From the NCBI GenBank assembly GCA_000218745.1, contig GL947595.1, positions 236,397 through 269,240 of the forward strand: a stretch of 32,844 bases of DNA, written 5' to 3'. The DNA comes from Prochlorococcus marinus bv. HNLC2. Its GTDB lineage: Bacteria > Cyanobacteriota > Cyanobacteriia > PCC-6307 > Cyanobiaceae. Numbering within the stretch: position 1 is the first letter of the stretch; the number at the start of each line of letters is the position of its first letter. Made by a program: the position numbers and the translations under genes. Of this stretch, positions 14,398 through 16,769 are shown in pieces. Below the pieces are notes generated by a model, which had not been told where the DNA came from, made no database searches, and saw nothing but the letters and a program-made list of their open reading frames with translations.

Positions 14398-15012
14398 ATG
14401 AAATCTTTTATGCATCATGAATATGTTTCGATTAACTCTAAAAGTGCGAAATATAGAATAATTCTTCTTCATGGCTGGGGAGCTGATGCCGATGATCTTT
14501 TACCTATAGGGAAACAGGTCACAGATGGTTTACAAAAAGATTTTGATATTATTTCTTTAAGAGCGCCTAATTTAAGAACTGATAGTATAGGTAGACAATG
14601 GTATGGTTTATATCCTGCTAATTGGTCAGAAGCAGAACTTGAGGTTAATAAGTTAATATCTACACTTAAAGAAATAGGCAATAACGATATCCCGCTAAGT
14701 AATTCAATCTTACTAGGTTTCTCTCAGGGGGCAGCAATGAGTATTGCAGCTGGTTCAAGATTAAATTTAGGTTTAATAGTCTCTTGTAGTGGATATCCTC
14801 ATCCTAATTGGGATAAAAAAATTAATTCACCAATATTATTAAGTCATGGTGAAAAAGATGAAGTTGTGCCAGTTGCAGCTTCTAGGCAAATTTATGGCGA
14901 CTTAAAAAAATATTCAAATTATTCCTGTAAATTGCATGAATTTAGTGGATTTCATGAAATTGATATTAATTTTATCGATATTATAAAGTCTGAAATTAAT
15001 ATTATTTTCTAA
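14398..15012 (+). CDS. Serine esterase, phospholipase/carboxylesterase type (alpha/beta hydrolase)
   Basis: A 204-residue cytoplasmic hydrolase of the abhydrolase_2 (carboxylesterase/lysophospholipase-like) family. The oxyanion region is LLHGWGADADDLLPIG near residue 23. The catalytic triad can be read as Ser109 in LLGFSQGAAMS, Asp154 in SHGEKDEVVPV and His186 in FSGFHEID. The family usually cleaves short-chain esters or lysolipids; the natural substrate here is unknown. It is divergent from purH with 34 bases between starts, and its TAA stop overlaps the DUF3155-like gene's stop by four bases (CTAA). An alternative ATG lies four codons in. Confidence 0.9.
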   Translation: MKSFMHHEYVSINSKSAKYRIILLHGWGADADDLLPIGKQVTDGLQKDFDIISLRAPNLRTDSIGRQWYGLYPANWSEAELEVNKLISTLKEIGNNDIPLSNSILLGFSQGAAMSIAAGSRLNLGLIVSCSGYPHPNWDKKINSPILLSHGEKDEVVPVAASRQIYGDLKKYSNYSCKLHEFSGFHEIDINFIDIIKSEINIIF

Positions 15013-15377
15013 ACAAACGCGTATTCATACTCTTCAATTTCCTCCCAATCATCTGCAGATAATTCTAATCCTTCAAAAATCTTTTCTTCTCCAATACCTT
15101 CGACTACAGTTTTTAATGATGGAAATAGAAAATGGTTTTCTTCTGCGTATTGCGCACTAAATAATCCTTTTTCTCCCCAGAAGAACCTATCAGTAGTGTG
15201 CTCATTTCTTCTCACATTGAATACGCATGGTGCAGATAACCCGTTTTCAGCGATGAATCTTCTAGCTGCGGTTACAGGCTTGTGTTTACCTGTCTCAATA
15301 TGATAAATAGGCACATGAGCCATAACTCTTTGTCCTGCTAATCTTCTTCTGCTAATTCTTTTTCTTTTTTTTGACAT
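15009..15377 (-). CDS. Small cyanobacterial protein, DUF3155-like
   Basis: A 122-residue soluble protein of unknown function. It starts with a very basic stretch (MSKKRKRISRRRLAGQRVM), has VTAARRFIAENGL near residue 35, then NVRRNEHTTDRFFWGEKGLF (about 54-73) and the aromatic run AEENHFLFPSLKTV, and ends in an acidic tail (WEEIEEYEYAFV). The RRNEHTTDR(F/Y)FWxEKGLFxAQY pattern matches, from memory, the cyanobacterial family DUF3155. The basic head suggests binding to nucleic acid or the ribosome, but that is only an inference. The upstream intergenic stretch to the histidine kinase gene is unusually rich in dyad symmetry. Confidence 0.85.
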   Translation of the reverse strand: MSKKRKRISRRRLAGQRVMAHVPIYHIETGKHKPVTAARRFIAENGLSAPCVFNVRRNEHTTDRFFWGEKGLFSAQYAEENHFLFPSLKTVVEGIGEEKIFEGLELSADDWEEIEEYEYAFV

Positions 15378-15629
15378 TGATTTAGATCCTCTATAGTTCT
15401 TTATTTTGATTAAAAGTAAAATTTTGTTTTACTAATCAATTAAATGTGACTTAATCACTTGTATATATACATAGAGGACCCATCAACCTCTGATGTAGCA
15501 TATTAATTATGAACATTGGTTCATAAAAAAGGATGATCAAATTCAGCCATCCCTAACAATCTTAATACTTTTTTTATATTTTACAAGCTTTTTTAGAAAT
15601 TTTTTTGAAAAAATTTCTTGATTTAAATT
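15378..15629. other. Intergenic region with several inverted repeats
   Basis: This 252-base gap between two divergent start codons holds five dyads: the palindrome TGTATATATACA (15460-15471); TAGAGG/CCTCTG around a nine-base loop (15472-15492); TTATGAAC-ATTG-GTTCATAA (15507-15526); GGATG/CATCC around 12 bases (15531-15552); and AGAAATTTTTT-TG-AAAAAATTTCT (15595-15618), which ends 11 bases before the kinase start. No open frame with a recognisable product is seen. It may hold both promoters and possibly a small RNA; nothing matches the small RNAs I know well. Confidence 0.4.
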
Positions 15630-16769
15630 ATGAAGCCCTCTATTAAATTTGAAGATTTAGTTTTAAAGCAGCTCGAGAGTTTTGGCTGCTTTATGGGGGT
15701 TAGGCATCTAGTCGTTTATTTAGCTTCTGCGAAAGAGGGAGCTAATGCTGGATTTGAGTTGATAGGGCAGTGGCCACAAATTGATAGGTCACTACTGCCT
15801 ATAGATGATGATCCTGAATTAAAATTTGCCTCAGCGAATCGAAGATGGTATCCATTGCAAGATGAGGATATCTTAATTGGTGTACTGAGGGTGGAAACAG
15901 AGTACAAAGATAGTGAGTGGCCATTAATACTTGACTCTAGATTGAAAGCTTTAGCCTCCTCATTGGCAAAAACTTTTTCTATTGAAATTGAAAGGCAAAA
16001 CAATAATAAGGAAATTAATTATCTTAGAAATCAAGTTGGAGTTATCGTTCATCAATTAAGAAATCCATTAGCTGCATTGAGAACTTATGCAAAATTACTT
16101 ATAAAGAGACTTGGCTCAGATAGCGATGCTTTAGATATTGTCGAAAGTATGTTGAATGAGCAGAAGCAAATAAATGAATATGTAAATTCTTTTGATCAAC
16201 TAAATAAAACTATAAAAATCAAAGGAGGAATTAGTGATGAAAGATTACTTCTCCCACCAAATCTTAAATCTAATAAAACGATAAATCTTCAAAGCCTTTT
16301 ATTACCTATTTTTGAGAGAGGCAAAGCGAGTGCAAAGTTACAAAATAAAGTGTGGTGCCAAAATATTGAATGGCCTGATTGGATCCTAGAAGAAGTTCCT
16401 TCAAAATATGGGGTAATTGCTGAGATAGTTGCAAATTTGTTAGAGAATGCTTTTAAATATTCAAATAAAAATTCTGAAGTAGGAGTAAAGTTTATAAAGT
16501 TTGGAATTTTAATTTTTGATACTGGTAAAGTTATTTCAAAAGAAGAAAAGGTAAATATTTTTAAAAAAGGATTTAGAGGTGATGCTTCAAAAGATAAGGA
16601 GGGATCTGGTGTGGGTCTTTATGTAGCAAGACAACTAGCTACTCAAATTGGCGGGGACTTAATTCTGTATGAACAAAATAATGATGAGGATTTAGATTCT
16701 TATTTTGAAGATACTAGTAAAGTTAATATTTTTTATCTAAAATTTCCTAATGAAATATTGCATGTGTAA
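15630..16769 (+). CDS. Soluble sensor histidine kinase
   Basis: A 379-residue protein with no membrane span. Residues 1 to about 120 look like a GAF-type sensory domain (inference from pattern, not a match I can name). The HisKA dimerisation part follows a short helix and carries the H box VIVHQLRNPLAALRTYAKLL with the phosphorylated His141. The ATP-binding domain shows the N box IVANLLENAFKYS (Asn273), the D/G box ILIFDTGK (Asp297) and the G2 box GSGVGLYVARQLA (325-337). It is not SasA, since the KaiB-like N-terminus is absent. No response regulator lies nearby, so its partner is unknown, as is common for the few two-component proteins in Prochlorococcus. The 3' end overlaps cobS by 23 bases, tail to tail. 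Confidence 0.9.
   Translation: MKPSIKFEDLVLKQLESFGCFMGVRHLVVYLASAKEGANAGFELIGQWPQIDRSLLPIDDDPELKFASANRRWYPLQDEDILIGVLRVETEYKDSEWPLILDSRLKALASSLAKTFSIEIERQNNNKEINYLRNQVGVIVHQLRNPLAALRTYAKLLIKRLGSDSDALDIVESMLNEQKQINEYVNSFDQLNKTIKIKGGISDERLLLPPNLKSNKTINLQSLLLPIFERGKASAKLQNKVWCQNIEWPDWILEEVPSKYGVIAEIVANLLENAFKYSNKNSEVGVKFIKFGILIFDTGKVISKEEKVNIFKKGFRGDASKDKEGSGVGLYVARQLATQIGGDLILYEQNNDEDLDSYFEDTSKVNIFYLKFPNEILHV

Follow-up and report, generated by a model that had tools for sequence, protein, structure and literature searches.

The window, by which we mean the whole 32,844-nt stretch analysed here, belongs to a 1.48-Mb single-contig Prochlorococcus genome and carries purH, an esterase gene, DUF3155, a histidine kinase gene, cobS and tgt around a gap of 252 nt (15378-15629). 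The gap is flanked by the DUF3155 gene on one side and the kinase gene, possibly of the Hik2/CSK type, on the other, and the two point apart (DUF3155 on the minus strand, the kinase on the plus strand), as the preliminary description of this DNA had noted. The closest named locus is that of uncultured Prochlorococcus AH-321-J17, whose DUF3155 protein is 100% identical and which shares 99.2% identity with the source over 266 positions around the gap, where HNLC1 shares 73%. The features discussed below are collected in Table 1.

All 61 family genomes (40 genera) encode DUF3155, as do 115 of 116 genomes sampled across the class, and each of the 61 family loci has a kinase match on the divergent side of the gene, an E limit of 1 being used in part of these searches. 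The protein is strongly conserved, with 47 of 123 aligned columns invariant across 19 loci, and its N-terminus is basic. Its structure model (mean pLDDT 83) gave no Foldseek match at E ≤ 0.001 and none at Z ≥ 5, a result that is uninformative either way, and a PDB sequence search returned nothing to E 1; neither the sequence search nor the fold search gave a sign of RNA binding. In the available parts of the literature searched, DUF3155 is mentioned only in the context of annotation software.

Table 1. Features of the DUF3155-kinase gap and its two flanking genes (window coordinates).
Feature	Position	Strand	Basis or remark
DUF3155 gene, 122 aa	15009..15377	-	Pfam PF11352, E 5.2e-45
Predicted DUF3155 mRNA 5' leader, ~175 nt	15378..15552	-	promoter position; start near 15552 placed from the -10 element
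Shine-Dalgarno AGAGGA of DUF3155	15387..15392	-	
Predicted hairpin P4 (GATTA...TAATC)	15408..15437	-	covers the 7-pair repeat; by eye
7-pair inverted repeat	15415-15433		within the P4 place
12-base palindrome TGTATATATACA	15460-15471		
Predicted hairpin P3 (UACAU-C-AGAGG / loop UUGAUGGGU / CCUCUAUGUA)	15468..15497	-	
Linker GCUACA	15494..15499	-	between P2 and P3, overlapping the P3 foot; columns nearly invariant, 61 aligned loci
Predicted hairpin P2 (UUAUGAAC-CAAU-GUUCAUAA)	15507..15526	-	8-pair dyad of the preliminary description
8-pair inverted repeat	15507-15526		loop 4; equals P2
Predicted hairpin P1 (GGATG/CATCC)	15531..15552	-	predicted 5' end; letters vary in relatives, by eye
Predicted -10 element TAAGAT of DUF3155 promoter	15559..15564	-	16-nt spacer; block unchanged between the window and 12 named relatives
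Predicted -35 element TTGTAA of DUF3155 promoter	15581..15586	-	-35-like hexamer common across loci
11-pair inverted repeat	15595-15618		loop 2; T-run facing A-run
6-pair inverted repeat	15601-15613		nested in the 15595-15618 repeat
Histidine kinase gene (HisKA, HATPase_c)	15630..16769	+	Pfam; divergent from DUF3155

The gap had been singled out for five inverted repeats at an unusual density. Counting perfect inverted repeats with arms of at least 6 and loops of at most 12 indeed yields exactly five, but dinucleotide shuffles of the gap hold 2.3 ± 1.6, and five or more occur in 89 of 1000, so the density is ordinary for so A+T-rich a composition. An arm of at least 8 arises in 218 of 1000 shuffles and one of at least 11 in 6, leaving the 11-pair dyad as the only repeat that is rare by chance. 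Compared by eye with relatives, the repeats divide: the 8-pair repeat recurs, as does a hairpin at the place of the 7-pair repeat, so that the expectation of conserved dyads holds at two of the five places and fails at the 11-pair dyad, the 6-pair repeat nested in it and the 12-base palindrome. The stretch near the kinase that holds the 11-pair dyad is the least conserved part of the gap; this dyad, which had been noted just before the kinase start, exists in the source sequence, but it is not kept in relatives and is probably incidental. Folded as RNA, the whole gap is more stable than its shuffles on both strands (z -3.0 for plus, -3.6 for minus). A search of the gap for small open reading frames found a single frame of 29 aa, which is not conserved.

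Sequence conservation identifies other parts of the gap. The stretch around it is matched in 146 of 151 genomes of the genus, some only by short weak pieces, and 89 relatives with the full stretch have both start codons in place, a gap of 229-262 nt and 74-78% identity, conservation that is clearly beyond chance. It is concentrated in three blocks (15559-15586, 15507-15526 and 15468-15499), which within the genus read, on the minus strand, as the promoter block AAAAAGTATTAAGAT, the P2 arms TATGA..TCATA, and GCTACATCAG[AG]GGTTGATGGGTCCTCTATGT in P3. Among 125 distinct leaders of the genus, which are 152-182 nt long, an identical 36-nt core string occurs in 87, and five lay outside the search expression. 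Across the family the core (at most 3 mismatches) and the promoter block (at most 4) are found together in 54 of 61 loci, the source genome included; at these thresholds the seven others (L112, L116, L132, L143, L166, L167 and L168) lack one or the other. In two of these, L167 and L168 of genus g8, the gap is much shortened, to ~130-190 nt, and contains neither promoter block nor core.

The consensus of the promoter block is TTGNNA, 16 nt and TAAGAT, read on the minus strand. Of 59 loci, 50 have TAAGAT exactly and 49 have a -35-like hexamer (at least 4 of 6 letters, at a spacing of 15-18), where shuffling of the block predicts 9.9. When one rule was applied to both strands, with 4 of 6 letters matched in each hexamer, a -35/-10 pair was found on the minus strand in 51 of 59 loci (14.1 expected) and on the plus strand before P3 in 4 of 55 (7.4 expected). 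Since promoter pairs exceed expectation on the minus strand and not on the plus strand, we read the conserved element as minus-strand RNA, with a predicted promoter for DUF3155 lying upstream on the gene's own strand, as expected of a cis-acting leader. Fold stability provides mixed evidence as to strand. Using 20 shuffles each for 55 leaders from other genera and 12 chosen leaders from the genus itself, z was lower on the minus strand in 44 of the 55, and in the window was -3.5 on minus vs -1.7 on plus, yet in 9 of the 12 own-genus leaders it was lower on plus. Choosing the strand from G-U pairs was also tried and dropped, as the full count shows no preference: P2 has 11 cells that are G-U on minus and 9 A-C cells, which would be G-U on plus, and P3 has 25 of each. 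In many of loci L138-L165, GTATCGACCAATAC or a near-variant follows shortly after TAAGAT on the minus strand, where transcription is expected to begin; it has the appearance of an operator or of a hairpin at the 5' end.

Downstream of the predicted start, four hairpins can be drawn on the minus strand, of which P1 and P4 are evidenced by reading the sequences by eye. P1 is followed by six U on the minus strand (15525-15530) and resembles a weak intrinsic terminator placed right after the start; the U-run is absent from most of the relatives compared. The P2 arms, TATGA..TCATA in the genus, become GGUUGCAC..GUGCNACC in other genera. P3, which had not been listed among the original repeats, is the best conserved part of the leader. 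P4 takes the form GATTAG..CTAATC in many relatives within the genus and a different stem in L203, again by eye.

Several ways in which these hairpins might communicate with the ribosome-binding site were considered. The Shine-Dalgarno region (15387-15394) is complementary over 8 nt to the 3' arm of P3 (15471-15478); a switch between P3 and this pairing fits the window and its nearest relative L196, and over 6 nt also L197. The remaining relatives compared do not fit it, and it is not put forward as a general feature. Among other-genus leaders, 47 have a recognisable Shine-Dalgarno site and 8 others have none; in 40 of the 47 (27 expected) a hairpin of at least 5 pairs containing the site can be formed, which we treat as weak evidence, as the stretch upstream is pyrimidine-rich and a search of the window for a local version found none. 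A long-range GTCGACC/GGTCGAT pair, present in some loci, was set aside because the same letters also form a direct repeat in L125. In L127 and L128 (genus g20), the minus-strand DUF3155 leader carries two tandem copies of P2, the linker and the P3 5' arm, upstream of a single P3 3' arm for which the two 5' arms could compete.

The loop of P3 also raises the question of translation within the leader. In the genus of the window it contains an AUG that follows AGAGG or AGGGG, and the peptide that would start there, MGPLC..., is common in the genus (among the 30 commonest peptides listed), as might be expected if a leader peptide controlled DUF3155. The AUG is, however, found in the loop of only 13 of 52 other-genus leaders, and within the genus the peptide ranges from 5 to 36 aa, with a one-base insertion in L009 shifting the frame. 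As a conserved reading frame with its start was not found, the upstream reading frame was rejected as an explanation, and we regard it as extremely improbable.

We examined pairing in P2 and P3 in two alignments. The first, A2, was aligned without regard to structure and comprises 23 loci (L111-L136 minus L112, L116 and L132). Here P2 and P3 are paired in 73.9% of cells, against 35-50% for slid versions of the same stems, and 1 of 500 shuffles reaches the pairing value and 1 of 500 the covariation score. Five pairs show double changes (9 double-change cells), a number matched by shuffles in 145 of 500, so the covariation in A2 is modest. In A3, which was fitted to a model and in which the fitting leans toward structure, 78.1% of cells are paired and double changes occur in 12 of 17 pairs (50 cells), with none of 500 shuffles as high. 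A3 consists of 55 matches from 57 sources, five of which gave none; second, opposite-strand matches in L111, L126 and L113 are probably spurious. A further alignment, A1, included no more than ten loci from the window's own genus, and L109, L112, L116, L132, L143 and L166 had been left out before it, together with L167 and L168, which have no promoter match. In genus g38 (15 genomes) the P3 loop AUUGAUGGG is invariant while the stem takes the forms CAGAG/CUCUG, GAAG/CUUC or CGGA/UCCG; 11 of 13 distinct P3 hairpins there still pair, and L284 and L288 have only two pairs in the stem search. Taken as sequence evidence, these comparisons point to a conserved RNA structure with compensatory changes, one whose strand the G-U pairs leave undecided.

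These results also bear on a purely DNA-level account of the gap, in which two divergent promoters and protein sites for both genes are what is conserved and the hairpins are incidental palindromes. The gap is shared by the divergent genes in 61 of 61 loci, few of its pieces vary as little as the promoter block, and the operator-like GTATCGACCAATAC or its near-variant at the expected start in many of L138-L165 would suit a protein site. DNA sites do not, however, explain why the P3 loop is kept while its stem changes or why the pair counts exceed those of slid controls, and in the window P2 and P3 lie ~26-85 nt downstream of the predicted start. We consider conservation at the DNA level quite unlikely as the explanation.

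To determine how widely the P2-linker-P3 core is distributed, we used a covariance model, R1, built from 23 loci. At E ≤ 0.01, R1 matches 66 of 101 family genomes and has no match in the remaining 35. Below E 1e-4 there are 49 matches in these genomes, every one of them directly upstream of DUF3155. By genus, the DUF3155 place is matched in 30 of 40; 8 genera have no match, and in genera g4 and g16 the match is weak and away from DUF3155. Matches away from DUF3155 are weaker, reaching 24.8 bits; the same 24.8-bit match recurs in three g38 genomes (G187:C1:1791052-1791101, G233:C1:447410-447459 and G248:C1:472964-473013), where it may reflect either a second copy or chance resemblance within a conserved gene. 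A search of 97 class genomes, 88 of which lie outside the family, gave a best outside match that also has 24.8 bits (E 5e-4, in G416). Three things were thus observed directly in the sequences: the conserved elements, the order in which they stand, and one strong location in each genome, in every case ahead of DUF3155. The last of these is as expected of a cis-acting leader. In 19 loci of other families (L173-L191) the core was sought before DUF3155 and none was found, so the gene does not need it. Many of these loci have a TTGAAA..TATACT-like promoter followed, by eye, by a small hairpin GTAGC..CTACA, ~60-90 nt before the DUF3155 start and farther in L190.

The recurrence of the core bears directly on the simplest account, that the gap holds an ordinary promoter and nothing more, with repeats such as A+T-rich DNA is expected to contain. 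The number of repeats, reached by 89 of 1000 shuffles, and the loss of the 11-pair dyad and 12-base palindrome in relatives agree with it, but recovery of the core ahead of DUF3155 by the covariance model in 30 of 40 family genera does not, and we hold this account to be very improbable.

The other possibility raised for the gap was an unannotated small RNA, either acting in trans after being cut from, or ending within, the DUF3155 leader, or transcribed from the plus strand. The core is short, compact, structured and deeply conserved, Prochlorococcus MED4 is described as having many non-coding RNAs (PMC2518516), and the lower z on plus in 9 of 12 own-genus leaders, together with a C-rich loop when P3 is read on plus, would suit a plus-strand transcript. 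Promoter-like pairs before P3 on that strand are, however, at chance (4 of 55, 7.4 expected), no terminator-like site was found in 14900-16100, and synteny with DUF3155 is fixed. Nor is there a credible Rfam match to the gap at gathering or relaxed thresholds, a 14-bit match to the L20 leader (RF00558; gathering threshold 58.7) being dismissed as noise; 16 other-genus loci gave no Rfam match up to E 1, and the phage records searched gave no match.

An earlier prediction is relevant here. Axmann et al. (2005) list for MED4 a cluster 217, a predicted structured RNA flanked by a two-component sensor histidine kinase gene and the gene of a conserved hypothetical protein, represented by one MED4 sequence with Z -1.63 (reverse -4.28) and the entry '-' for experiment in the accessible part of the paper (PMC1242208). 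Judged from its neighbour genes only, cluster 217 is probably the MED4 copy of the gap. According to the same part of the paper, both strands of seven candidate regions in MED4 were probed, and because the MED4 sequences of clusters 194, 51, 53 and 217 total seven, cluster 217 was probably among them; it is not among the candidates with strong signals named there (PMC1242208). The entry '-' is ambiguous, as it is also printed for cluster 245, which according to the text was left out (PMC1242208). A probable MED4 copy that lacks a strong Northern signal on either strand, as far as that part of the report shows (PMC1242208), disfavours an abundant small RNA. With promoter-like pairs on plus at chance and no Rfam match besides, a separate small RNA appears unlikely; an RNA from the minus strand that ends within the leader would still be compatible with these results. 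If cluster 217 is this locus, an old small-RNA candidate that failed in Northerns would be explained as a long mRNA leader.

We therefore return to the leader. In our preferred reading, to which we assign a probability of about 0.6, the gap comprises the promoter and a structured 5' leader of the DUF3155 mRNA on the minus strand, in which P2, the linker and P3 form a receptor that controls DUF3155. The order promoter, P1, P2, linker, P3, P4, Shine-Dalgarno and start is what such a leader would be expected to have. Transcription would begin near 15552 and run through the four hairpins to the Shine-Dalgarno sequence and the start codon at 15377. The core would serve as receptor for the DUF3155 protein, another protein, a metabolite or a small RNA, and binding of this ligand would shift the downstream fold and alter how readily ribosomes reach the start site. 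The transcript and its start, the regulation and its action at translation, and the ligand are here deduced from sequence, and control at translation is the likely form. Start-site data for MED4 and MIT9313 are cited in PMC5069720. The suggestion that the gap controls both divergent genes is therefore retained for DUF3155, from the direction of the promoter and the positions of the hairpins, but not for the kinase, whose dyad lies in the least conserved part.

Because it is small and strongly conserved and its N-terminus is basic, the DUF3155 protein itself is our first candidate for the ligand, a guess at autogenous control that we offer as possible but doubtful. In a more specific form, held tentatively and below even odds, P2-linker-P3 may represent a new class of regulatory RNA receptor peculiar to the picocyanobacterial family. 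Binding would then take place at the near-invariant linker and the loop UUGAUGGGU, the DUF3155 protein or a small molecule would set DUF3155 synthesis, and the duplication in one genus would form a tandem switch. A leader kept in at least 30 genera beside a class-wide gene of unknown function provides a handle on DUF3155, as its binding partner should reveal what the protein does. Prochlorococcus is described as having few regulatory proteins in the sections available of PMC2518516, and RNA control would for that reason matter there.

What remains is a predicted structured leader, conserved ahead of the uncharacterised DUF3155 gene, that belongs to no Rfam family; a literature search covering articles apart from their supplements found no paper on it. 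Cluster 217, in the part of PMC1242208 at hand, likewise is a structured RNA predicted between a kinase and a hypothetical gene, but it is a one-strain prediction without parts or function, whereas for the present locus we describe a predicted promoter, an argument for the strand, a P2-P3 core and a distribution across the family. The Yfr small RNAs of Prochlorococcus resemble the DUF3155 leader in being intergenic, structured and group-specific; the leader differs in being fixed beside DUF3155, with no promoter or terminator of its own found. Overlap with a Yfr RNA is unlikely as judged by coordinates, since single-contig genomes of the genus have the gap locus at about 252-285 kb and the lowest MED4 coordinate in the portions of the Yfr tables available is ~340 kb (PMC2518516, PMC1242208). 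The accessible text of PMC2518516 names no non-coding RNA between such genes, its table listing gene numbers, and new Prochlorococcus small RNAs are named in the part available of PMC7368042.

Riboswitches share with the leader a conserved hairpin core upstream of the Shine-Dalgarno sequence, which in one genus is duplicated (L127, L128), but the leader has no Rfam riboswitch match, stands before one gene only and has no metabolic hint from DUF3155. Autogenous 5' leaders that bind ribosomal or other proteins, such as the L20 leader, occupy a single place and act in cis as structured RNAs before the gene of a small basic protein. To our knowledge DUF3155 is not a known ribosomal protein. The DUF3155 leader differs from these leaders in that no Rfam model fits it, and shares with them the single place, the cis position, the structure and the small basic protein gene that follows.
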